NCBI GenBank assembly: GCA_020444065.1
Contig: JAHLLQ010000001.1
Location: forward strand, 124,001 to 188,000
Direction: 5' to 3'
DNA: 64,000 nucleotides
DNA from: a bacterium
GTDB lineage: Bacteria; Sumerlaeota; Sumerlaeia; SLMS01; JAHLLQ01
The notes under the pieces were generated by a model. That model was given only the letters and a program-made list of their open reading frames with translations, was not told the origin of the DNA and ran no database searches. The stretch's first letter is position 1, and every line of letters starts with the position of its first letter. Below, piece after piece: positions 14,854 through 26,939 of this stretch. A program made the translations under genes and the position numbers.

Positions 14854-16555
14854 ATGAGAGTCGAGAGTCCAACTTCGCACGAGACCGACGCAGCGCTCGA
14901 ACGCTGGCTGCTGCCGATTATTGCGGTCTTTGGACTCGCGGTGGCGTTCCAGAGCCTGATCCCACCTTGGAACTTCGTCATCGACGATTACTACATCTCC
15001 GCGCGCTATGCGAAGATGCTGACCAGTGGGCATGGCCTCACCTACAACTCGATGGGTGAGATGGTCGAAGGATACAGCAACTTCCTCTGGACCCTTCTGC
15101 TGGCGGTTATTCAGTTGCTTGCGGGCGCGACTCGCGACATCACTCCGATCGTCAAGTTCATTGGTGCGGCGAGTTTCCTGGGAATGATTCTGGGGGCAGC
15201 CTTCATTGCGAAACAACGGTGCGAAGAGCCGCCCGAATTGCTTCGCGCTATCTCTCATCCAGCCCGGCGTATTCTGTGGATCGTGCTTCTTGCGACCTAC
15301 ACTCCTTACGCCTACTACGCGGTCAGTGGAATGGAGACGATCTTCGTCAGCCTCCTGGTCGCCATGGGCGTCTTCTTCTGGATCAGACGAGGAGAGCCCA
15401 ACTGGATCACGATGATGTTCTTCATGCTGACGGCCCTCGCCCGGATCGATGGTGTACTGATATTCGGGCTTTGCGGTCTGGCAATGCTGTTCCAATGGCT
15501 GTGGCTGAAGAAGAAGTTCTGGGCCTACGTGAAACTGGCAGCGATCCCGACGATCATCTACATCCTATATCAAGCAGGGCGAATCGCATATTATGGCGAA
15601 CTCCTTCCGAATCCTTTCTACGCAAAGATCAGCAGCACGGGCGCTGAGAGACTCACGCCCTACTCGAGCTTTGCAGGTTTCCTGTAAGGGCTTCCCGGCC
15701 TCTTCGTGATCGCCTTTGGGTTCGTTGTCGATGCGTGGAAGCGCAATGCAGTCCCGATCCTTCTCCTGCTCATCTACACCGGATTCCAAACGTATTTGCT
15801 GAGGCTTCCGCTGGACTGGATGCCATTGGGGCGCATGGAAATGCCTGTGATGAGCATTTATCTCTATCTGCTTGCTGGCGGCCTGTTTTCGATGGGCGTG
15901 CTCCTGATCGAAGGTGCGCGACGCTTCCTGCCTCCCAACCGCGCCAACCAGGTTGCTGCGAGTATTCTGGCCGGAGTCCTGATCGCAGTCGGCACTGGGC
16001 ACATTCACCGACGAAGAGGACATCGTCTACTCCGACGTGGCAGGGGTGATTTCCTACTTCTCCGACGCGTATACGCTGGACGCATGGGGATTGAATGACA
16101 AGGAGACGGCGAGAGAGGGAAAAGTCAAGCTGGGCAGGAGGGGCAACCCCATCATCTGGGGACGCGTGCACTCAGGACGGGTGGCCGCGCTGATGCCTGA
16201 GTACTTGATGCTTGCCGAACCCGGCCGATGGGAGTTGCTGCCGTGGGATCACTTTCCTGAGAGAGTCTTCAATTCCAGAGACCTGGCCCGCGAGCCGAGA
16301 TTCTTCGAGCAGTACCGTGCCGCGTACATCAGAACAAGCGGCAAGCCTCCGCTCTACATCTACTTTATGCAGCGCAGAGACCTGCCGGATATCGAACTCG
16401 ATCCGGAATTGGATCTAAAGCTGGTGTACGAACCCGAAGGCTCGAATGTCGCAAAACACTTCATCGAGGTTGTTCATGCAGTGGATGAGGCGACATCGCT
16501 CAGTAGCACTGCCATCCCTCTACCGACGAAGCGGGATAATCGAAGAACAGAGTGA
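14854..16555 (+). pseudogene. Broken GT-C membrane glycosyltransferase (in-frame stop plus frameshift)
   Basis: The first part encodes a membrane protein with the GT-C signature region: FVIDDYYISARYAKM, then EGYSNFLWTLLLA, as in mannosyl/arabinosyl-transferase-like proteins using polyprenyl-phosphate sugars. A TAA at 15685-15687 stops the frame, yet the same frame continues as membrane protein to about 15985. There the coding sense shifts to the +1 frame (ALGTFTDEEDIVYSDV onward) and runs to 16555 with the family-like segment DVAGVISYF. Two lesions suggest a real pseudogene, though assembly error is possible. Its 3' end overlaps the convergent carboxypeptidase gene by 56 bases. The TTG at 14821 is an alternative start. 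Confidence 0.8.
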
Positions 16556-18245
16556 ACGTTTCGTCTGTGCCGCCGGAATCGCCATTGCCGGTGGAATCCT
16601 CGTAGCCGATCCAGCCGCCATCGAAGTCCGCAACCGTCGCGGGCTGTGCATCCAACTCGTGCCCGTAGAGATCCTGTGTGGTAATCTCGAGCGCAACCGA
16701 TTGGGGATTCGTTTCGCCGATACCGACGCTGCGCAGATCCAGGTAGCACATCCATGTATCGTACTTGTAGCGCTCGAAGCCCGGCGAGCTTGGGGTGGAA
16801 GCGACTGCCTGCCAACCATCATCGACCGGCTGAAGAATCTGAGTCGTCGTCGCGCGATCGTTTGTCTGCAGAGTCAAACGCGCGGTTGGATGAATCCCGA
16901 TGGCCTGGCCGGGCCAGTTTGCGGGAACACCACCAACCTGCTGGCGCATGGGCTTGTTGAACTGAACGAGCACCTTGAACAGTTTGCCGTATTCGACTTC
17001 TTCATTGGTGGAGACCATTCGCGAACGCGTCGTGCCTCCGGCAGAATCGGGGCTCCAGTTGGAGTGATACACGATCTCTCCAACGTCGATCTCCCCATCG
17101 GAATTCGCATCCTGCCAGACCTTGAGGTCTTCGACAATCGGAGGACCGGAAGTATACATCATGGCCAGCAGCAAAGCCTGGATGTTCTCGTGCGTGACCT
17201 CTTCAACTTCGTCGTCAGGCAAGACAAAGGTTGGCCCAGAGCCAGGAACGCGATAGCGCGGTGTCGGGTACTCGATTGTGTAGCTCGGAATGTTGTACGT
17301 GTGGCTGAAGTACTCGTCGGTCGCGCCGATTTCATCGCCGGGATAAACAACGAGCGTCTGGTAGCTGTTTGAGATGCCATTGATCGCGCGATACGTGTTC
17401 TGCATGCGCCCCAGCAGTTGCGCAGCGGCGCTTTCGACTTCCGTGTCGCCATTGTAGATGATGTAGATTGCAGGGATCGCCCCGTGCATGTCGGCATAGA
17501 ATCGCAGATTCGGCTCGGGGCCAAGTAATCCAACCAATGCCTGCAACGCCTGAGCCTCAGGTTCGGAAGAGGCCGACGTGCCGTGGTAAGAGGAACTGGA
17601 TGGATTGCTGCTCGAGTTCGCCCAGCCAACGGGGAAGTTGCGGTTTACGTCGACGCCAAGATAGGCATCCGATGTCGTGCCCGCCAAATCCTCGTCGACG
17701 CCATTCATGTTCTTGCGACGCTCGCGGCCATCCGTCGAGTCGATGTATTGACTCGGATAGCGCTGCGTCTGCAGGAACCCATCAACATTCAAAACTGGGA
17801 CCATCGCGAGGTTGTTCTGATCAACGAGATAGGTCGCAATCGGATCTGTGCCGTACCCATCTGCGAAGTACTCCAGCAGCCGCGTCACAATTTCCGGCGA
17901 TGCCCACTCTCGGGCATGGATCGTCCCGTTGACCGCCGCCGAGGCCTCGATCGTGCCATCCACGCCGACACTGTCGCTGTCGCCAATCACATAGGCGTAA
18001 ATGGTGCGGCCATCGATTGTGGTACCAAGCTCATACTCAGTAATGAAGTCGTTCGCCAGCGCCAGGTCGCCCGTGCGTGTGTTGAGCGACGAATACGAAC
18101 GGAAGCCTTCCACCGGCGTTGTCGAGTTCACTGGGATCGGCACGGGATAACCAAGGCCGGCTTCGGTGTAAGTGGAAACCTGGGCCGAGGCGAACCCCGC
18201 AGCCAATATCATGCAGGCCGCGAGGCCGATCAGTTTGCGAGCCAT
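16500..18245 (-). CDS. Secreted M14-family zinc carboxypeptidase
   Basis: A signal peptide (cleavage after about ASA, residue 21) precedes an M14 catalytic domain: HAREW (His110, Glu113, zinc ligands), GVDVNRNFP (substrate-binding Asn-Arg), DMHG (His254, third ligand) and YTIEYP (Glu325, catalytic). The tail has a Ca-binding-like loop (DANSDGEIDVGE, about 379-390), a beta-rich domain, and ends GWQCY. It removes C-terminal amino acids from peptides outside the cytoplasm. Its start overlaps the upstream helical-repeat gene by 16 bases. The C-terminal W-x-x-Y ending is shared with two other secreted proteins in this window. Confidence 0.9.
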   Translation of the reverse strand: MARKLIGLAACMILAAGFASAQVSTYTEAGLGYPVPIPVNSTTPVEGFRSYSSLNTRTGDLALANDFITEYELGTTIDGRTIYAYVIGDSDSVGVDGTIEASAAVNGTIHAREWASPEIVTRLLEYFADGYGTDPIATYLVDQNNLAMVPVLNVDGFLQTQRYPSQYIDSTDGRERRKNMNGVDEDLAGTTSDAYLGVDVNRNFPVGWANSSSNPSSSSYHGTSASSEPEAQALQALVGLLGPEPNLRFYADMHGAIPAIYIIYNGDTEVESAAAQLLGRMQNTYRAINGISNSYQTLVVYPGDEIGATDEYFSHTYNIPSYTIEYPTPRYRVPGSGPTFVLPDDEVEEVTHENIQALLLAMMYTSGPPIVEDLKVWQDANSDGEIDVGEIVYHSNWSPDSAGGTTRSRMVSTNEEVEYGKLFKVLVQFNKPMRQQVGGVPANWPGQAIGIHPTARLTLQTNDRATTTQILQPVDDGWQAVASTPSSPGFERYKYDTWMCYLDLRSVGIGETNPQSVALEITTQDLYGHELDAQPATVADFDGGWIGYEDSTGNGDSGGTDETFTLFFDYPASSVEGWQCY

Positions 18246-19384
18246 TGAGTCACCTTCTTCTTGAGGGCTGCGTCCGCGGCGGCTTCCGCGGGTCGATTTG
18301 CGTATTCAGAGAGTGCTTCACGGGCGGATTCGGTATTGTCCCGCATCAGCAGAAGCACGGCGCGCCGTTCGGCGACACCTCCAGCCGAATCTGCAAGCAC
18401 GTCGAATGCGATCTGGCGGGCAACGGAATCATCCATGCGCTGCAAGGCGGCTACGGCGTCCGCGCCAAGGTCGGCATCGCCGAGGTACTCCTTCAATCTT
18501 CCCTGCACCTCTGGCGTTGCATCGTTGGCATGCAACGTCCCGAGGGCGACCGCGCCCAGGACCTGCGGCCGTTCGTCGATCATTCTCAGTGTGTCCTCTG
18601 CTCCTACGCCCACAACTTCTCGAACGCGTCCGTAGGCCAGCATTGCCAGTTGAGCGTGAGACGTATCCAGCGTGCGAGCCAACTGCACCAACACATCACC
18701 GCGGTTCTGGCGCTCGGCGGAGACAATCAGTGCCCCCAACACAGGTCGCGACTTGCCGGCCGCAAGTTCCGGCGAATCGATCAGCTTCTGCCATGCAACG
18801 TCCGAATCTTCCAGCGCGTCCAGGGCACCCCGAACGCGTGCGGGCTCGTCCTGATCCAGGGCGGCCTGGAGGACCGCCGCGGGAGCATCCTGGCTCAACC
18901 GTGCGACAAACTGTGCCTTTGCGTCCCGGTATTCGATGTTGTCGGCCGCGATCGCCGCCGCTCTGGGGAAATCGTAGTAAGCCAGAGTCACCGGTTCGCG
19001 CTCGTCGGGGATCGTGAACGTCGCCTCAGCCGGCTGGCGCGACAGCTCCCGCAGCGTCGGAACGGCATCGGTGGTTCCGGCGTCTCCGAGAAACTGCGCG
19101 GCCTCAAAGAGCAGTCTCTCCTTCGCCACAATCGGCAGTGTAGACTTCTGTATCTCTTTGATTTGTAATACTATTCTGGAAGTGCTTTTTTGAGGGCTCT
19201 CGTCCTCGACAACGGCCTGCATTTCTACCGAGCGCGCCTCGACGTCAGGGGCCGTCGCCGCGGCGGGCAACTCGACGTCCGGCACTCGCAGCCGGGCGGG
19301 CTGTGCCCCAACAGCCGAGAAAAGGCCCGCACCCAGCACCGTGCTGAGCACATAGGCCCCAATCCGCTTCTTGATTCGCTTCAT
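18230..19384 (-). CDS. Exported helical-repeat protein of unknown function
   Basis: MKRIKKRIGAYVLSTVLGAGLFSAVGA is a signal peptide-like start. The rest of the 384 residues is Ala/Leu/Asp-rich amphipathic helices resembling HEAT-type repeats (for example AVLQAALDQDEPARVRGALDAL). No catalytic motif is seen. It overlaps the carboxypeptidase start by 16 bases and the pseudopilin-like gene stop by 4, so all three are probably one transcript. A protein-interaction role is the only reasonable inference. Confidence 0.7.
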   Translation of the reverse strand: MKRIKKRIGAYVLSTVLGAGLFSAVGAQPARLRVPDVELPAAATAPDVEARSVEMQAVVEDESPQKSTSRIVLQIKEIQKSTLPIVAKERLLFEAAQFLGDAGTTDAVPTLRELSRQPAEATFTIPDEREPVTLAYYDFPRAAAIAADNIEYRDAKAQFVARLSQDAPAAVLQAALDQDEPARVRGALDALEDSDVAWQKLIDSPELAAGKSRPVLGALIVSAERQNRGDVLVQLARTLDTSHAQLAMLAYGRVREVVGVGAEDTLRMIDERPQVLGAVALGTLHANDATPEVQGRLKEYLGDADLGADAVAALQRMDDSVARQIAFDVLADSAGGVAERRAVLLLMRDNTESAREALSEYANRPAEAAADAALKKKVTQWLAN

Positions 19385-19824
19385 TCGTGCATTCCTTTCA
19401 CGTCGGAACGGGAGAAGAACAGATCGCCCGTCGAATCAATCCCATTGGTCGGGTCATAAGAGAGCAGAATCAAGTCCATTGCGTCCAGAATCGTGCCTTC
19501 TTTCCACACTGGCGACAACTGCTCATCAGGCCCACGACCAATCAGAAGCCAGTCTTGTTCCGTTGCAATGTACCCATAGGGGGCCCGCATTGGATCCCTC
19601 GAAGACGGATCGTAAGGCATGTCCTGCGAGTACGCCACCGGCGTAGTGAGCTCAGGAGTCAGATGTGCCGTATTCACACCGTGGTCTTTCCGATAGGCCT
19701 TCACTTGGATACTCATGGTCTCCAGTCCCGCCAACACCAACAGCGGAGGGTAAGACTCCACAGAGATTGCCGCCACTGCGGCGACAAAGGCGGCAGCCGA
19801 GTAGATCAAGGGATCATTCTTCAT
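19381..19824 (-). CDS. Pseudopilin-like membrane-anchored protein (DPTNG family), paralogue 1
   Basis: The 147-residue protein has one N-terminal hydrophobic helix and a C-terminal domain containing TPELTTPVAY, DWLLIGRGPD and SYDPTNGIDSTGDLFF. The same pattern recurs in the gene at 20049 and partly in that at 30716. Domains of this kind end type II secretion/pilin-like proteins in related uncultured bacteria, from memory. No prepilin peptidase site is present. The ATG at 19824 is chosen; an in-frame GTG at 19836 sits almost on top of a GGAGGA and is an alternative. Confidence 0.65.
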   Translation of the reverse strand: MKNDPLIYSAAAFVAAVAAISVESYPPLLVLAGLETMSIQVKAYRKDHGVNTAHLTPELTTPVAYSQDMPYDPSSRDPMRAPYGYIATEQDWLLIGRGPDEQLSPVWKEGTILDAMDLILLSYDPTNGIDSTGDLFFSRSDVKGMHE

Positions 19825-19878
19825 CTGGACAAGCACTCCTCCCGCGCCCGGTACTTGAAGCCTGGGCGCCCGGATAAG

Positions 19879-20029
19879 GCCTGTCAGGGGAATTGTGGAC
19901 AGGAGGACAAGATTCCAAGTGAAGGGACGGAATGGAGGTCGGCTCGTGCCGTGCAGTCGGTGGAGCCGGAGGAAGGTTCTTCTACTTCATACTTCACCTG
20001 CCTCAAATTCTGTTCATCCTGTGAATCCT
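19879..20029. repeat. Intergenic inverted-repeat unit, copy A
   Basis: The left arm (19879-19904) has an internal inverted repeat CCTGTC/GACAGG and matches the left arm of copy B at 24 of 26 positions. The right arm (20010-20029, CTGTTCATCCTGTGAATCCT) is identical in copy B over 20 bases. Arms are in opposite orientation around about 105 bases of unrelated sequence. It lies between two paralogous genes. Confidence 0.75.
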
Positions 20030-20048
20030 ATCCAATACATCCTCAAAC

Positions 20049-20741
20049 TCATCGCGTGGAACGTTTCATTTCCATGCTGCTGAAGATCAAGTCGCCCTCC
20101 GAGATGCTCCCATTGGTCGGATCATAGGAGAGTGCGTTTAACTCATGGAGGGGTAGAATCTCTCGATCTCGCCATACAGTCGATAGGTTCCTGTCCTGCC
20201 CCTGTCCGACAAGGACCCAGTCCGTATCAGTATGAAGATACAGGAATTCGCTTCCCTCGCGAGAAAACCCGTCCCGTGGAGGCTCTTTGAGATACGATAC
20301 TGGCGTCGTCAGTTCAGGGGTGAGTAAGAGGGGGAGTGTTTCATTGTCGCGTCGAAAGGCCTCGATGGCCTGGCCGATATCGCGCAGACGTTGCTTTTCG
20401 ATATTGGTTTTCGCCCTATCGCGCGCCTCATGGATCTCCGGCCAGACTGGGCCTTGAATCACGGCGTTAGCCGAGAAAAGTAACGTCAGAACCGACATCC
20501 CAGAGACCTCTGCCCTCTGCCTCTTGGAGATCCGCCCGTACACAAGAGCAATGATCGCAAGAACCAGCGCCACGAGAAGGAGAATCAACATCATCCCGCG
20601 GCTGTAACCAATAACCGGCGCCACCAATGCCAGCAAGAACGCTCCCAAGGCGAGAGATAGAGGGGTCTTGAAGGTCCATCTGGACACCCTGAGCGTCTCA
20701 ATCAAGTGGCGAAGTACCGGGTGTATCCAGAATCTCATCAT
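20049..20741 (-). CDS. Pseudopilin-like membrane protein (DPTNG family), paralogue 2
   Basis: Two adjacent hydrophobic segments (about residues 25-70) precede a helix RDRAKTNIEKQRLRDIGQAIEAFRRDN, typical of the pilin stem, and a C-terminal domain closely similar to the 19381 gene: TPELTTPVSY, DWVLVGQGQD, LSYDPTNGSISEGDLIF. The start is the first of two adjacent ATGs after GTAGGGGT. It is flanked on both sides by copies of the intergenic repeat unit. Function unknown; a cell-envelope location is likely. Confidence 0.65.
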   Translation of the reverse strand: MMRFWIHPVLRHLIETLRVSRWTFKTPLSLALGAFLLALVAPVIGYSRGMMLILLLVALVLAIIALVYGRISKRQRAEVSGMSVLTLLFSANAVIQGPVWPEIHEARDRAKTNIEKQRLRDIGQAIEAFRRDNETLPLLLTPELTTPVSYLKEPPRDGFSREGSEFLYLHTDTDWVLVGQGQDRNLSTVWRDREILPLHELNALSYDPTNGSISEGDLIFSSMEMKRSTR

Positions 20742-20793
20742 ACCCCTACCAATTCAAAGCGACAACCCCTTCACATTGTCACGCTGAAGCGAA

Positions 20794-21011
20794 GCCTGTC
20801 AGCGCAATTGTGGACAGGATTTACAAGATGGACAAGATTAGAGATAAGGGGGAGTGACTCCGGCAAATCTCGGGGGGGGGGATAGTACATGGGGAAGTGA
20901 GTGCGGTCCTTCATCGGCTTCGATTCTTCACAATACAGGAAGGATGCCGGACGGGTCGTACGGCCGACATGAGTCTCTTCTTCTGAATCCTGTTCATCCT
21001 GTGAATCCTGT
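20794..21011. repeat. Intergenic inverted-repeat unit, copy B
   Basis: Left arm 20794-20840 carries the CCTGTC/GACAGG inverted repeat followed by a segment whose 26 bases (20814-20839) match the reverse complement of the right arm (20986-21011) at 22 positions; all differences are transitions. The interior includes a run of nine G (20873-20881). The arms could fold into a long hairpin. It ends 5 bases before the MazG-like gene stop. Confidence 0.75.
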
Positions 21012-21016
21012 CTACT

Positions 21017-21373
21017 TCAGAGCGGCAGCCCCTTTTCCTTGTCCCTCAGACGGCGGCGTTCGATTTCGTGGAGCTTGTCGGCCACGGCCTGCGCCAGGTC
21101 GATCCCGCGGGCGTTCGAGTAGTTGACCGCGGCGATCACGACATCGGCGGCCTCGTCCGCCAGGTCTTCCAGCGGGATGTCGCGCCCCTTCCAAACCTTT
21201 TTTTCCTTGTTGGCGATCTCCCCTGCCTCGCCTGCCAGTTCGAGGGCGAAGAACTCGGCGGGGCGCTCGGGGAAGGCCGCGCGATTGTAATCCCGGAAGC
21301 CCTGTTGCGCGGTCGCTAGCGCGCGGCGCAGGTCCTCGACGAAATCCATGCTTGGTTTCTGGGCGTCGGACAT
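21017..21373 (-). CDS. MazG-like nucleotide pyrophosphohydrolase
   Basis: The 118-residue helical protein has the metal-binding pattern of the all-alpha NTP-pyrophosphatase superfamily: ELAGEAGEIAN (ExxE-like) followed by DEAADVVIAA (ExxD). Members hydrolyse (d)NTPs or related nucleotides to monophosphate and PPi. Length fits a single-domain MazG-like protein. The ATG at 21373 is preferred; 11 codons upstream another start exists. It is divergent from the polyamine genes. Confidence 0.82.
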   Translation of the reverse strand: MSDAQKPSMDFVEDLRRALATAQQGFRDYNRAAFPERPAEFFALELAGEAGEIANKEKKVWKGRDIPLEDLADEAADVVIAAVNYSNARGIDLAQAVADKLHEIERRRLRDKEKGLPL

Positions 21374-21495
21374 GAAAAACTCCTGGAGTTCCCTCGGCGG
21401 CGGCACGAATTTCTCTCGCCTCCGAAATGAGTCTTCGAGACAAGCACAGCCGGTGCCTCGACACGCAAGCTGATTTCCCTCAAGGAGCCCCGCGA

Positions 21496-22374
21496 ATGCC
21501 TAAAGATCCCGCCCGCAAAGTCATCCTCGGCCTCGTTCAGATGGCCTGCTCGGACAACGCCGAGGAGAACGTCGACAAGGCCATCGCGAAGATCCGCGAA
21601 GCCGCCAATGACGGCGCCCAGGTGGTCTGTACGCAAGAGCTCTTCCGCAGCCCGTACCCGTGCCAGAGCGAAGACCACGACTTTTTCGCGCTTGCCGAGC
21701 CCCTGCCCGGCCCAACCACGGATCGCATTGCCGCGGTGGCCAAGGAGAAGGGCATCTCAATTGTCTCTTCGCATTTCGAGCGCCGCGCCGCGGGCGTGTA
21801 CCACAATACGGCCGTGATTTTCGAAGCGACCGGCGAAGTGCTCGGGCTCTACCGCAAGATGCACATTCCGGACGATCCGAACTATTACGAAAAGTTCTAC
21901 TTCGCGCCCGGCGATCTGGGATTTCGGGCGTGGGATACGAAGTTCGCGCGGCTCGGCGCGCTGGTGTGCTGGGATCAATGGTATCCGGAGGCGGCCCGCC
22001 TGACGGCACTGCGGGGCGCGGAGATTCTCTTCTACCCCACTGCGATCGGTTGGCTGCTGGAGGAGAAAGAGAAGTACGGCGAAGTGCAGCACGATTCCTG
22101 GGAAACCATCCAACGCGGCCACGCGATTGCGAACGGCCTATACGTCGCGGCGGTCAATCGAGTCGGCATCGAGGGCAACATCCAGTTCTGGGGCCAGTCC
22201 TTTGTCGCGGATCCGCAAGGCCGCATCATCGCGCGGGCCGATGCGGAGAAGGAAGAGAACCTGATCGTGGAAGTCGACCTCGCGCGTTGCGAACGTGTGC
22301 GCCAGCACTGGCCGTTCCTGCGCGACCGGCGCATCGACGCTTACGGCGATATCACCAAGAGATTCGTGGACTGA
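21496..22374 (+). CDS. aguB: N-carbamoylputrescine amidase
   Basis: This nitrilase-superfamily enzyme (292 residues) has the catalytic triad Glu48 (CTQELF), Lys121 (YRKMHIPDD) and Cys158 (LVCWDQWYPE). The sequence closely follows known N-carbamoylputrescine amidases (FGPGD-like FAPGD, FYPTAIG, WETIQRGHAIANG). It converts N-carbamoylputrescine to putrescine, CO2 and ammonia. The ATG at 21496 follows AAGGAG; the in-frame ATG at 21427 is rejected since the conserved domain starts at KVILGLVQ. The partner agmatine deiminase is two genes downstream. Confidence 0.95.
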   Translation: MPKDPARKVILGLVQMACSDNAEENVDKAIAKIREAANDGAQVVCTQELFRSPYPCQSEDHDFFALAEPLPGPTTDRIAAVAKEKGISIVSSHFERRAAGVYHNTAVIFEATGEVLGLYRKMHIPDDPNYYEKFYFAPGDLGFRAWDTKFARLGALVCWDQWYPEAARLTALRGAEILFYPTAIGWLLEEKEKYGEVQHDSWETIQRGHAIANGLYVAAVNRVGIEGNIQFWGQSFVADPQGRIIARADAEKEENLIVEVDLARCERVRQHWPFLRDRRIDAYGDITKRFVD

Positions 22375-22378
22375 CGCC

Positions 22379-22816
22379 GTGAAGTCTCTCGCCGATGTTG
22401 CAACACGGGAGCTTGAATTCGCCATCGATGAAGTAGATTCTCGCATCGTCGAGGTCCGCGCAGGCGAGGATCGAATCGGCGAGATGATCTGGCACGACGC
22501 GGCCGGCGCGTTCGTCGAAGTGCGATCCTCCCGCAACAGTTGGGGCTTTCGCACATCCGAAGCCGCCGTCGAAATCCGCGAAGTTGGGTGCGATTGCCTG
22601 GTGGGAATGCTAGACCGTGCCACGAAGGAGGCGAGCGTCGCAGCTGCGAGACCTCTGACGTGGCTGCCAAATGAAGACCGGTTCGTATTCTCCGACGGCG
22701 ACGAGGCGCTGCAAATTGAAGGAACGAGTATTCGGACTTCCTCCCGTCTCTGCGAACATCCGGATGGGACATTGCTTGTCATGCTGGCGGTTCATTTGAA
22801 AGCGATCGAAGGATAG
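22379..22816 (+). CDS. Unknown small protein between the two putrescine-pathway genes
   Basis: The GTG at 22379 lies 4 bases after the aguB stop, and the stop lies 3 bases before aguA, so it belongs to the operon. The 145-residue product is acidic, soluble and beta-rich by eye, with no motif recognised. The reading frame extends upstream inside aguB, but a start there is unlikely. A role in polyamine synthesis is only suggested by its position. Confidence 0.6.
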   Translation: MKSLADVATRELEFAIDEVDSRIVEVRAGEDRIGEMIWHDAAGAFVEVRSSRNSWGFRTSEAAVEIREVGCDCLVGMLDRATKEASVAAARPLTWLPNEDRFVFSDGDEALQIEGTSIRTSSRLCEHPDGTLLVMLAVHLKAIEG

Positions 22817-22819
22817 CAC

Positions 22820-23908
22820 ATGGTTCCGTATGCGCTGAAGCACTCTGAACTCCCCGCTGGATTGGGATACTCGATGCCGGCCGAATGGGAGCCCCAGGAG
22901 GCCATGTGGCTGGCGTGGCCGCACCGCGAGTCTTCGTGGCCCGGACTGCTGCCGGTGATTCCAAACATCTATGCACAGATCGTGAAGGCCCTGATGCCGC
23001 ACCAGAAGGTTCGTGTTCTCGTGCGCGACGAAGAACTGCGTGGCCAGGCCGAAGAGACACTGCGCCACTTCAGTGCGTACAACGAGAACGTGGAACTGAT
23101 CGTCATTCCGACGGATGATTCGTGGATGCGCGATTGCGGACCAATCTTTGTTCGCCGTCCGGCGGCCGATGGAGGTTTCGAACTTGCTGCGATCGATTGG
23201 GAGTTCAACACGTGGGGCGACAAGTACCCGCCGTATGGGCTCGACAATCAGGTCCCCACAAAAATCGCCGAGATGTACGGATTCCCGATGTGGTCGCCCG
23301 GGATCGTAATGGAAGGCGGCTCGATCGATGTGAACGGTCGCGGAACTCTGATGACCAGCGAGGCGTGTTTACTGAACCCGAATCGCAATCCGCACCTGAC
23401 GCGAGAGCAGATCGAGGAGTACCTGAAGGCCTACCTGGGAGTGCGACACATCCTCTGGCTCGGCGATGGAATCGTCGGCGACGATACGGACGGGCACATT
23501 GACGATCTCACTCGCTTCGTCGACCCCACGACAGTTGTAACCGTGATCGAGGAGAATCCCGCGGATGAGAACTATGACATCCTGCAGGAGAACCTGCGTC
23601 GACTGCGCGGTATGCGAGACCAGGACGGCCGCCCGCTGCTCGTGGAGACGCTGCCCATGCCTTCGCCCGTCATCTACGAAGACACGCGCCTGCCGGCCAG
23701 CTACGCGAATTTCCTGATCGCAAACGACGTCGTCCTGGTGCCGACTTATGAATGTGCGAATGATGTGCGGGCGCTGCAGACGATGAAGCGCCTCTTCCCG
23801 CATCGAGAGATCGTCGGTATCCCGTGTTCGGAACTCGTGTGGGGACTCGGCGCGCTACACTGCATCTCGCAGCAGCAGCCTCGGGCGAAAGTGGCGAGTG
23901 ACAAGTGA
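22820..23908 (+). CDS. aguA: Agmatine deiminase
   Basis: The 362-residue enzyme of the peptidyl-arginine-deiminase-like fold has the family motifs MPAEWEPQEAMWLAWPH, DDSWMRDCGPIFV, GGSIDVNG, DDTDGHIDD and the catalytic Cys348 (GALHCISQQQP). It hydrolyses agmatine to N-carbamoylputrescine and ammonia, the step before AguB. With aguB it gives the arginine-decarboxylase-dependent route to putrescine; no arginine decarboxylase is in the window. AAGGA lies ahead of the ATG. Confidence 0.96.
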   Translation: MVPYALKHSELPAGLGYSMPAEWEPQEAMWLAWPHRESSWPGLLPVIPNIYAQIVKALMPHQKVRVLVRDEELRGQAEETLRHFSAYNENVELIVIPTDDSWMRDCGPIFVRRPAADGGFELAAIDWEFNTWGDKYPPYGLDNQVPTKIAEMYGFPMWSPGIVMEGGSIDVNGRGTLMTSEACLLNPNRNPHLTREQIEEYLKAYLGVRHILWLGDGIVGDDTDGHIDDLTRFVDPTTVVTVIEENPADENYDILQENLRRLRGMRDQDGRPLLVETLPMPSPVIYEDTRLPASYANFLIANDVVLVPTYECANDVRALQTMKRLFPHREIVGIPCSELVWGLGALHCISQQQPRAKVASDK

Positions 23909-23919
23909 CGAGTTCGAAG

Positions 23920-24411
23920 TCATGTGTTCAGATGCCCCAGGACTTCTTCCACGGCAGCTTCAACTGAGGAGAGACACGACACTCGAATAGCGTCGCGCGG
24001 CGGCTCCAGATCGCGGAATTGCCCCTCGATGATTCGGTCGAATCGCCCGACCAGACTGTGTCCCTTCCGATGGCGAAGTCGCGCATCGATCGTTTCTCTC
24101 GTACACTCGATGTAGACAAGATGAATATGTGAATCTGCTTCGCGCAGGACGTTGCGGTACGCTTCCTTCAGGGCGGAACAGGCCAGCACGGCTCCCGCGT
24201 CGGCCTTCCACTCCGCGATATGGCTCGCGACTATGCGCAACCAATCCTCCCGGTCTGCATCATCGAGAGGCTCATCGCGGCGCAACTTCTGGAGGTTGGT
24301 TTCTGGATGGTGATCGTCGGCGTCGTGAAAGGGAATGACCAGCCGCGCTGCTAACGCTCGACCAAGCGTGGTCTTGCCGCAACCGGTCACTCCCATCACA
24401 ACGATGATCAT
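23920..24411 (-). CDS. gntK: Gluconokinase (thermoresistant GntK type)
   Basis: This 163-residue P-loop kinase starts VVMGVTGCGKTTLGRALA and carries HDADDHHPETNLQKLRRDEPLDDADREDW-type signature residues (shown here as the segment near residues 29-57), then ACSALKEAYR and the lid HSLVGRFDRI. It phosphorylates D-gluconate to 6-phosphogluconate. It follows the cyclic-diphosphoglycerate-synthase-like gene after 2 bases, so both are one operon. Length is normal. Confidence 0.92.
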   Translation of the reverse strand: MIIVVMGVTGCGKTTLGRALAARLVIPFHDADDHHPETNLQKLRRDEPLDDADREDWLRIVASHIAEWKADAGAVLACSALKEAYRNVLREADSHIHLVYIECTRETIDARLRHRKGHSLVGRFDRIIEGQFRDLEPPRDAIRVSCLSSVEAAVEEVLGHLNT

Positions 24412-24413
24412 GC

Positions 24414-25736
24414 TTACTTCAAGAAGTCGCCCAGGACATCTTCCAGATCTGGCTTGCCGATTTCCTGCAGTTCATAACGAACGCGGACAGCGGGCTTATT
24501 AATCTTGATGATACGGCGCAGATCGATCGGGGTGCCGATCACGACGATCTCTGCGTCGGATGCATTAATCGTTTCTTCCAGTTCCTTCATCTGCTTCTGG
24601 CCGTAGCCCATTGCCGGCAGAACATGTTCGAGGTGACTGTACTTCGCGAACGTGTCGACAATCGAACCCACGGCGAAGGGGCGAGGATCGATGATCTCGC
24701 CGGCGCCAAAGCGCTGTGCCGCAACGTGACCGGCGCCAAAACGCATCTCACCATGCGTGACGGTCGGACCATCTTCGACCACTAGAACGCGCTTGCCCTT
24801 CAGGGTGTGTGCATCGTCCACGAGAATCGGCGACGCACCGTCGATGACGACTGCGTTGGGATTGTATTTTGCAATGTTCGCACGCACTTCCCGAATCGCG
24901 TCGTAGTCCGCTGTGTCTTCCTTGTTGATCACGATCACATCGGAGGCCAGTAGATTCACCATGCCCGGGTAGTAGGTCAACTCATGGCCAGCACGATGCG
25001 GATCGACGACGGTGATCCACAGGTCTGGCTTGTAGAAGGGGAAGTCGTTATTGCCGCCGTCCCACAGGATCACATCGCAGCCTTCCTTCTCGGCTTCGCG
25101 AACGATCGCCTCATAATCCGCGCCCGAGTAAATCACGGCCTGGCGATCGATGTGCGGTTCGTATTCTTCGCGCTCCTCGATCGTGCACTCGTGCTTATCG
25201 AGATCGGAGTAATCGGCGAACCGCTGGACCTTCTGCTTCTCCAGGTCGCCACCGTACGGCATAGGATGGCGAATCGAGATCACCTTCTTCCCACGCTCGC
25301 GTAGAATATCGAGAACGCGGCGCGTCGTCTGACTCTTGCCGCAACCTGTGCGGACCGCGGTGATGGCGATCACGGGCAGTTTCGACTTCACCATCGTGTG
25401 GCGCGGCCCGAGCAGCACAAAGTCCGCTCCGCAGGCATTCACCAACGACGACTTCTCCATCACGTACTGATGCGGCAGGTCGCTGTACGAGAGAGCCACG
25501 AGGTCGATATCGTGCTCGCGGATCAGCTTCGGCAGGTTGGCCTCGGCCTCGATCGGGATGCCCTTGGGATAGAGTTCGCCGGCCATCGACGGCGGATAGA
25601 CACGCCCATCGATATCGGGAATCTGGGTGGCAGTGAAGGCGATGACTTCGAAATTGTCGTTGTTGCGGTAGTACGTGTTGAAATTGTGGAAGTCGCGTCC
25701 GGCGGCTCCCATGATGATAACCTTCTGTTTACGCAC
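24414..25736 (-). CDS. Cyclic 2,3-diphosphoglycerate synthase-like GTPase-fold protein
   Basis: The 440-residue protein opens with a Rossmann-like start (VIIMGAAGRDFHNFN), then a P-loop region AVRTGCGKSQTTRRVL and WDGGNNDFPFY. This matches proteins annotated as cyclic 2,3-diphosphoglycerate synthetase, which in methanogens makes the thermoprotectant cDPG from 2,3-DPG and ATP. In bacteria the role of these homologues is not proven. Coupling to gluconokinase suggests carbon-phosphate metabolism. No truncation is seen. Confidence 0.75.
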   Translation of the reverse strand: MRKQKVIIMGAAGRDFHNFNTYYRNNDNFEVIAFTATQIPDIDGRVYPPSMAGELYPKGIPIEAEANLPKLIREHDIDLVALSYSDLPHQYVMEKSSLVNACGADFVLLGPRHTMVKSKLPVIAITAVRTGCGKSQTTRRVLDILRERGKKVISIRHPMPYGGDLEKQKVQRFADYSDLDKHECTIEEREEYEPHIDRQAVIYSGADYEAIVREAEKEGCDVILWDGGNNDFPFYKPDLWITVVDPHRAGHELTYYPGMVNLLASDVIVINKEDTADYDAIREVRANIAKYNPNAVVIDGASPILVDDAHTLKGKRVLVVEDGPTVTHGEMRFGAGHVAAQRFGAGEIIDPRPFAVGSIVDTFAKYSHLEHVLPAMGYGQKQMKELEETINASDAEIVVIGTPIDLRRIIKINKPAVRVRYELQEIGKPDLEDVLGDFLK

Positions 25737-25835
25737 GGTTTCCCTCCGTCAGTTGTGTCATAATCAACCAACAGGAGTCCTCCTTGTCCGATTAGGAGTC
25801 AAGGAAGATCGTGGCCCCGTGTTGCTCAAATGGTA

Positions 25836-26939
25836 TCAGTGCCCCATCCAGCCACTCGGAGCGCCCGGAGGAGTCCCGGACGCATCGATGATGGTCACCG
25901 TGTAATTGAAGTTCCGTGTAGCTCCGTATTGATCGACCACGTTCGTGATGTGGATGTTGTACTCCACGTCCGTGGAGGTCGTGAAGTCGGTCTCCGAGAA
26001 TTCCCACACGATTGTGTTATCACCGACGATCGTGCTCGAACCGAATTCCGGATAAATTGGCTGAACGGTCACCGGGACGTTTGTGCCCTCCCGGTCCATC
26101 ATCACACCGGCGTTTGTGAAGTCGGCGGAGTACATTGAAAAGGACCAGCGCGATGTGCTTCCATTCTTCGCGTTGATAACCTGGTACGGGACGTATCCCG
26201 GCGGTGGCCACGAGACCCACTCTGGAGACGCGGGACGCGAACCGAAGTCCTCCGGCACAATCACCCAAAGACAACCTGCGCGCGGTGGAGATATCGTCCC
26301 GGTCGGCGCATCTCCGACTCCCATCGTCAATGAACGGGGATACAGAGTCCATCTGCGGTGCCCGACGTAGGTATTGCCGGCGCCGTGATCTTCCATATAT
26401 CCATCAATGGCGGCGACCCCGTCGGCACCTCTGACGAGATTGGAACGTTGGGCGGCGTCGTAACCGTCTTGCGTCCAGCAGGTCCAGGATGTAGGCGGCG
26501 CATGGTTGAGTGGCTCATTCTCGTTCGCGCTGATCATCACTGCCATGTCGTCGGCCTTGGAACTGAGATCCGAACGCAGAGTGACGTTTCCAGGCAGGCC
26601 GACCATCGCACGATAGTAGTTAATTCGTTTCATCGTTGCATCCTGGTAGGCCGCATCCACGGTTCCCGGATCGCAGGAAGCAACGCTGCCCGTCCAATTG
26701 GCGGGGACGTCTGCCGTTCCGACGTAATAGGTGTAGTAGAATTGGATGACGGCCGCACGATTCTGATTGTCGACGGAGATTCCTCCATCGCGGGCAATGG
26801 AATCTGCGGCGGAGGCTTCGGGGGGATTCTCGATGATTGGCGCCGACCCGAGAATCACATCCGGTGCTTCGGCTGAAACAACAGTCGCTGCAGCAGCAAA
26901 GAAGATCGTGCAGATTCGGCCCAATGGTCGGAAAGTCAT
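25836..26939 (-). CDS. Secreted CAP-domain (SCP/PR1-like) protein
   Basis: A signal peptide (MTFRPLGRICTIFFAAAATVVSA) is followed by a CAP-like domain: RINYYRAMVGLP, LSSKADDMAVMIS, LNHAPP and YVGHRRWTLYPR, equivalent to the cavity His and helix motifs of the SCP/PR1 family. A beta-rich C-terminal domain of about 130 residues follows, and the protein ends SGWMGH. CAP proteins bind lipids or act as proteases in various hosts; the role here is open. The ending resembles those of the carboxypeptidase at 16500 and the repeat protein at 59586. Confidence 0.8.
   Translation of the reverse strand: MTFRPLGRICTIFFAAAATVVSAEAPDVILGSAPIIENPPEASAADSIARDGGISVDNQNRAAVIQFYYTYYVGTADVPANWTGSVASCDPGTVDAAYQDATMKRINYYRAMVGLPGNVTLRSDLSSKADDMAVMISANENEPLNHAPPTSWTCWTQDGYDAAQRSNLVRGADGVAAIDGYMEDHGAGNTYVGHRRWTLYPRSLTMGVGDAPTGTISPPRAGCLWVIVPEDFGSRPASPEWVSWPPPGYVPYQVINAKNGSTSRWSFSMYSADFTNAGVMMDREGTNVPVTVQPIYPEFGSSTIVGDNTIVWEFSETDFTTSTDVEYNIHITNVVDQYGATRNFNYTVTIIDASGTPPGAPSGWMGH

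Follow-up and report, generated by a model that had tools for sequence, protein, structure and literature searches.

The 64,000-nt stretch of bacterial DNA analysed here (the window) contains two similar intergenic units with inverted arms on either side of a minus-strand gene, which raises the question of what these units are, whether they move and whether they duplicated the gene between them. Both units noted in the initial annotation are present: copy A spans 19879–20032 and copy B 20794–21012, and the gene at 20049–20741 lies between them. Their common plan is a pair of inverted arms built of tandem 9-nt units, each consisting of a core ACARGAT and 2 nt, such that a full arm has three cores separated by 2-nt spacers. 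A pattern of two units in a row (ATCCTGTNNATCCTGT) occurred at six sites in the window at ≤2 mismatches, compared with a mean of 0.32 in shuffled windows, and none of 100 shuffles reached six.

In copy A, the left arm (GGACAGGAGGACAAGATT, plus strand, 19897–19914) is degenerate and shortened, and an interior of ~91 nt (19915–20005) separates it from a right arm of three 9-nt units (plus strand, 20006–20032), which gives a 27-nt BLAST match to copy B at 92.6% identity. In copy B, the left arm (plus strand, 20813–20839) reads GACAGGAT TT ACAAGAT GG ACAAGATT and the right arm (plus strand, 20986–21012) reads AATCCTGTTCATCCTGTGAATCCTGTC, with 146 nt between them (20840–20985). Measured over 30 nt each (20810–20839 and 20986–21015), the arms of copy B are 83% complementary, with five mismatches, all of them transitions and four of them within the inner 27 nt, in agreement with the earlier description of a 26-base pairing with four transitions. 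The left ends of A and B have 26 nt in common (92% identical), including the motif CCTGTC-12 nt-GACAGG (plus strand; 19880–19903 in copy A, just outside and into the left arm, and 20795–20818 in copy B, at and outside the left arm), which resembles the junction between tandem units in a relative (loci L171 and L175, see below).

Finding only these two copies in the genome would have spoken against the reading of the initial annotation, but counting the arm sequence across all 14 contigs (5.2 Mb) revealed one more complete copy and a solitary arm. The triple unit matched six sites at ≤2 mismatches (reversed-pattern control, 0), namely the right arm of A, both arms of B, both arms of the third copy, C (C3:244156-244344), which lies beside other genes, and the lone arm (C1:988624). 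Copies A, B and C have only their arms in common; their interiors resemble one another no better than shuffled sequences do (93, 118 and 221 of 300 shuffles were equally good).

The gene between the copies (230 aa) is a paralogue of the adjacent minus-strand gene at 19381–19836 (151 aa); both are neighbours that lie outside the element, and the two proteins are 46% identical over 103 aa. The proposal that the element had a part in duplicating them found no support and we reject it: the C-terminal domain of the paralogues was matched in 37 of the 39 class genomes, and some genomes lacking the exact triple unit carry it as closely spaced tandem pairs or triples (G017:C96, G019:C286, G025:C45 and G026:C115), so their duplication needs no element. 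The converse explanation, that tandem gene duplication alone copied a gene together with its upstream hairpin, would account for A and B each lying upstream of a paralogue and for the common 26-nt left end, which is absent from copy C. We consider it the least credible of the explanations weighed here, because further copies adjoin unrelated genes, relatives have tandem paralogues without arms and the arms are far more alike than the genes. Two adjacent genes further along the window (21427–22374 and 22820–23908) read like N-carbamoylputrescine amidase and agmatine deiminase.

Beyond this genome, exact matches to the triple unit were found in 10 of the 39 genomes of the class, with no control hits in any of the 39, and a compact hairpin form was found in at least 117 stretches in a scan of 84,980 species. 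Its plan is G-ACAGGAT-NN-ACARGAT-NN-ACARGAT, a loop of 4–34 nt (the range set by the search pattern) and then the inverse. The analyses of compact elements use 80 of these stretches, and the 80 matches listed come from many bacterial phyla as well as archaea. No recurrent gene was found beside them when the 1,933 reading frames within 1.5 kb were clustered, the largest family being present at 6 of 80 loci. Copy B itself had no match among phage and plasmid records; a compact element matched three plasmid records, and six stretches of viral contigs carry a compact-type element. Loci L398–L401 are overlapping pieces of near-identical viral contigs carrying two ACARGAT hairpins.

Hairpins of this kind might be structured RNAs or bidirectional terminators retained for host gene regulation, a reading that we regard as very improbable. 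Consistent with it, copy B as minus-strand RNA has a better fold than shuffled sequences (z −2.90; 2 of 200 as good), compact elements are flanked by T-rich sequence on the left and A-rich sequence on the right, and the arms of 74 compact elements show partial covariation (second core, 71.6% vs 52.5%; first spacer base, 75.7% vs 62.1%). However, complementarity at both bases of a spacer is limited to 39% and 31% of these 74 elements, presence is patchy and the neighbouring gene is not conserved, there was no Rfam match in 15000–26000 of the window, and no terminator was called on the arms by a scan that admits loops of only 3–8 nt. Compensatory pairing as the main constraint on the arms was likewise rejected, the covariation being only partial. 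As single-stranded DNA, copy B folds unremarkably (z −1.54; 18 of 200 shuffles as good).

Genes of the GxxExxY family (PF13366/TIGR04256), which encode a PD-(D/E)XK-fold protein, occur near such repeats. The family was chosen for testing for this reason and because one member stands between arms in genome G013; in the passages available from the open-access literature searched, no function is assigned to it. GxxExxY genes were present in 44 of 48 genomes with compact elements, in 3 of 14 well-known control genomes and in 31 of the 39 class genomes, the family being widespread in the class in any case. For flank analysis, we compiled 158 domains (the first per reading frame, ≥90 aa, one per identical sequence, flanks ≥60 nt). 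An inverted arm pair lies within 300 nt of 109 of them, and 96 of these 109 pairs are built on one of five 7-nt words, that is, they contain the word at least twice; ACAxGAT, the word of A and B, flanks 13 of the 109. At the threshold used, no arm pair was detected for the other 49 domains. By eye, three units per arm are common.

The two flanks of GxxExxY genes matched each other as inverted repeats at 44 of 76 class loci, compared with 13 of 608 cross-locus pairs, and at 26 of 30 loci from other phyla, these being from genomes picked for carrying compact elements, compared with 15 of 240; for ParE control genes the counts were 0 of 25 and 0 of 200. This comparison excluded repeated genes and loci with a flank shorter than 150 nt. 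Direct-orientation matches were fewer than inverted ones (18 of 76 and 11 of 30, respectively) and suggest that a whole hairpin or another arrangement is present on some sides. The unit length of A and B recurs in these flanks: counting ≥15 of 18 self-matches at a given lag within 300 nt of distinct class genes, lag 9 was found upstream of 12 of 77 and downstream of 12 of 79; the corresponding counts were 6 and 8 at lag 8, 4 and 4 at lag 10, and no more than one at each remaining lag in the range 4–15. Among the 30 genes from other phyla, lag 9 was found in 8 and 7 and lags outside 8–10 in at most two, and ParE flanks gave at most one at any lag. A and B have inverted arms of tandem 8–10-nt units, as expected of a family armed in this way, but neither they nor copy C nor the lone arm has a GxxExxY gene between arms, and a six-frame profile search found no GxxExxY remnant in any of the three copies (the interior of B included) or next to the lone arm (best E 2.4). 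We therefore place A and B in a gene-less class.

The arm word goes with the protein clade across phyla. On a tree of the 109 armed domains, the five words, or dialects, require 21 changes compared with 56.1 when shuffled (13 rows labelled other are omitted from the dialect counts), and ACAxGAT requires 3 compared with 12.4. After relatives at ≥65% were removed, leaving 76 rows, the values were 20 vs 38.5 for the five dialects and 3 vs 7.6 for ACAxGAT; CRCNGAT and CRCNAAT were still clustered, and the clustering of CRCNAAG and CRCNGAG was no longer significant in the thinned tree (269 and 32 of 500 shuffles, respectively, scored as low). The ACAxGAT members belong to a relative in the class of the window genome and to Spirosoma, Acidobacteria, Planctomycetota, Saprospiraceae, Bacteroidales, Kiritimatiellae and Muproteobacteria genomes.

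Within Spirosoma, homologues at ≥67% identity had ACAxGAT arm pairs at 7 of 7 loci and the more distant ones examined at 0 of 23, the 30 loci compared being a subset of the homologue places found; among the 23, L439 has one ACAxGAT core per arm and L437 has four scattered cores. At L421–L434, GxxExxY genes at 40–55% identity to that of L312 often have another, less regular style of arm (for example, GCTGATTTTTATGATT). Arm sites number 0 to 45 per Spirosoma genome (45 in G050, 41 in G065) and occur in 18 of 36 genomes, including 7 of 7 with a close partner compared with 11 of 29 without one (Fisher P = 0.008). We caution that this correlation lends weak support, because the counts include the partners' own arms and several partner-less genomes are rich in arms (30 in G107, 22 in G093, where the single control hit also fell, and 13 in G114).

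The GxxExxY protein has a nuclease fold. A structure model (pLDDT 95.6) had its best PDB match in SSO0001 (Foldseek E 1.8e-4; Z 10.3), a Cas4; lambda exonuclease was also a top match, Holliday-junction resolvases and restriction enzymes ranked lower, and a search of PDB by sequence gave one weak match (E 0.093). RecB/Cas4-type nucleases carry D, ExK and QxxxY motifs. In 75 of the 158 domains, which were aligned, D66 is invariant and E27, Y30, E76, K78, Q90 and Y94 are nearly so, and the conservation of D66, E76, K78, Q90 and Y94 fits these motifs. It is therefore plausible that GxxExxY is an active nuclease, with the arms as its presumed substrate.

Gene-bearing and gene-less forms stand side by side in relatives. 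The same ends as in A and B surround a gene at L171, L175, L312 and other loci. At L175, a gene-less unit lies head to tail with a gene-bearing unit, with partial units on both sides (L175 1230–2000), and it matches the gene-bearing unit of L171 in the same genome at 90.6% over 85 nt covering the arms, the junction and the right inner edge. The left edge of its 58-nt interior matches the gene unit over ~26 nt (of 500 shuffles, none did as well against L171 and 14 against the gene unit of L175 itself), and the right edge does so more weakly (31 of 500 for L175 and 110 of 500 for L171). Since the left edge resembles the gene unit clearly and the right edge less so, the gene-less unit is, judging from these alignments, probably an internal deletion of a gene-bearing one. 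Head-to-tail arrays also occur at L081 8–219 and L064 1882–2045.

Elements also appear to lie within one another. Inverted matches just outside compact elements (score ≥13) were found in 10 of 78, a count that includes L403, which was added after nesting there was noticed, compared with 8 of 780 controls. At L116, L068, L101 and L403, compact ACARGAT hairpins are apparently nested, by eye, in arms of other dialects (CACGAAG, CACAGAG and CGCTAAA).

Together, these observations favour, with a probability that we put at roughly 0.6, the interpretation that A and B are worn, gene-less copies from a hairpin family of mobile elements, moved in trans by a clade-matched GxxExxY nuclease. The matching arms around the gene suggest that the protein probably recognises the arms and spreads both gene-bearing and gene-less forms. 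In the mechanism that we propose, a GxxExxY protein of a given clade would read its own core word in the arms, or the cruciform extruded by them, and would cut at the arms, and repair or rejoining elsewhere would then move the unit, with or without the gene. The protein could thus mobilise its own element and, in trans, shorter gene-less copies, much as a transposon moves its MITEs. The call for a transposase acting in trans has to this extent yielded a candidate, although GxxExxY is not a known transposase.

The same arms could instead be operator or protection sites of GxxExxY, serving autoregulation or the immunity of a selfish nuclease and spread by ordinary recombination, in which case the protein would not be the mover. 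We consider this unlikely: binding alone would explain why the dialect follows the protein clade, and no target duplication was found (see below), but this reading would not by itself explain the dozens of arm sites in some Spirosoma genomes, nor the probable deletion copy and the nesting.

If A and B belong to such a GxxExxY-mobilised family, their partner may have been lost from this genome. Six GxxExxY matches are present, and no double ACARGAT unit was found near any of them in the stretches examined; the four that were placed on the tree group most closely with CRCNGAG or CRCNGAT members rather than with ACAxGAT ones. No gene-bearing parent with the ends of A and B was found in the genome. 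Because none of the six matches has ACARGAT arms nearby, the four sites (A, B, C and the lone arm) are probably remnants, and the missing partner together with the worn arms suggests that A and B are probably relics. The genome also has four Y1_Tnp (RAYT-like) matches (C3:664520, C3:432128, C2:632024 and C2:666672), which, together with the intergenic position of the palindromes, would suit REP/BIME-like palindromes moved by a host RAYT (Y1 transposase). RAYT genes, however, are usually flanked by their own REPs, and no double ACARGAT unit was present at the two of the four loci that were examined (3.3 kb), while the arms track another protein, GxxExxY; this is therefore an explanation to which we attach very little weight. 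The elements resemble REP/BIME sequences in being intergenic palindromes with high copy number in some genomes and differ from them in that one core word spans bacterial phyla and archaea.

The initial annotation had suggested a MITE- or REP-like element, and it was right as to kind, given the further genomic copies and the very wide family. Like prokaryotic MITEs, A and B are short, non-coding and dispersed, with terminal inverted repeats, and in relatives the same ends enclose a gene; unlike MITEs, they have arms of tandem 7-nt words and are linked to a PD-(D/E)XK protein of the GxxExxY family, which is not a known transposase. Target-site duplication, which had been proposed as a check and was sought in 78 compact relatives rather than in A and B, showed no excess over controls: exact direct repeats of ≥7 nt occurred at 1 of 78, a tandem array, compared with 25 of 780 mismatched controls, and no duplication of fixed length was seen. 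Palindromic extension of ≥5 nt at the element ends, by contrast, was found in 15 of 78 compared with 38 of 780 controls, and the two results together hint at dyad-symmetric insertion sites and speak against a standard DDE transposase. Nor did an empty site come to light: in Spirosoma, the flanks of one copy match separately but unjoined among the matches listed (≤15 candidates scored per genome), and a full counterpart to the neighbourhood on a Prevotella nigrescens plasmid was not found. Movement of the element is thus inferred.

In the genomes searched, GxxExxY genes are common and often present in several copies. No viral relative of the protein was found. If these proteins do cut and move the arms, an enzyme would be in hand for a dispersed hairpin that is very common in environmental genomes; the arms offer a directly testable substrate, with a predicted DNA word of its own for each GxxExxY protein.

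A protein family unrelated to GxxExxY, PF05635 (S23, a four-helix bundle), shows the same gene-between-arms plan with 7-nt units. Lag 7 was found in 14 of the 30 flanks upstream and 16 of the 29 downstream, in a tally that counts some genes twice, and in other phyla (n = 28) in 16 and 11, with lag 8 in 4 and 2. The flanks matched as inverted repeats at 18 of 29 loci compared with 0 of 232 cross-locus pairs, and in other phyla at 21 of 28 compared with 10 of 756. We tentatively extend the interpretation, at what we judge to be somewhat under an even chance, to a previously unrecognised class of mobile elements of bacteria and archaea in which a small protein is encoded between inverted arms of short tandem words, the protein family sets the unit length (~9 nt for GxxExxY, 7 nt for S23) and the clade sets the word, and of which gene-less hairpins, 23S rRNA intervening sequences (IVSs) and perhaps heptamer repeats would be products.

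If GxxExxY proteins cut and move their arms, the parallel PF05635 pattern would bear on how rRNA intervening sequences originated. In the passages available from a study of Coxiella, the open reading frame of 23S rRNA IVSs belongs to the S23 family PF05635, and the Coxiella IVS is described as selfish and horizontally acquired, with the origin of IVSs called unclear (PMC4990558). The IVS resembles the elements described here in its small open reading frame between inverted ends, but it lies in rRNA, is excised by RNase III and encodes a protein other than GxxExxY, and tandem-unit arms do not appear in those passages. A and B, for their part, are intergenic between protein genes, with no rRNA match in 15000–26000 of the window. 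Heptamer repeats such as TAACTGA in Beggiatoaceae are, in the portions available of their description, likewise short words of fixed length that are repeated in tandem between genes and whose origin is uncertain, but they are mostly direct repeats of 7 nt; the paper makes no mention of S23, four helix or GxxExxY (PMC4679880). At the PF05635 loci L244–L273 and L459–L488, the 7-nt arm word varies from locus to locus.
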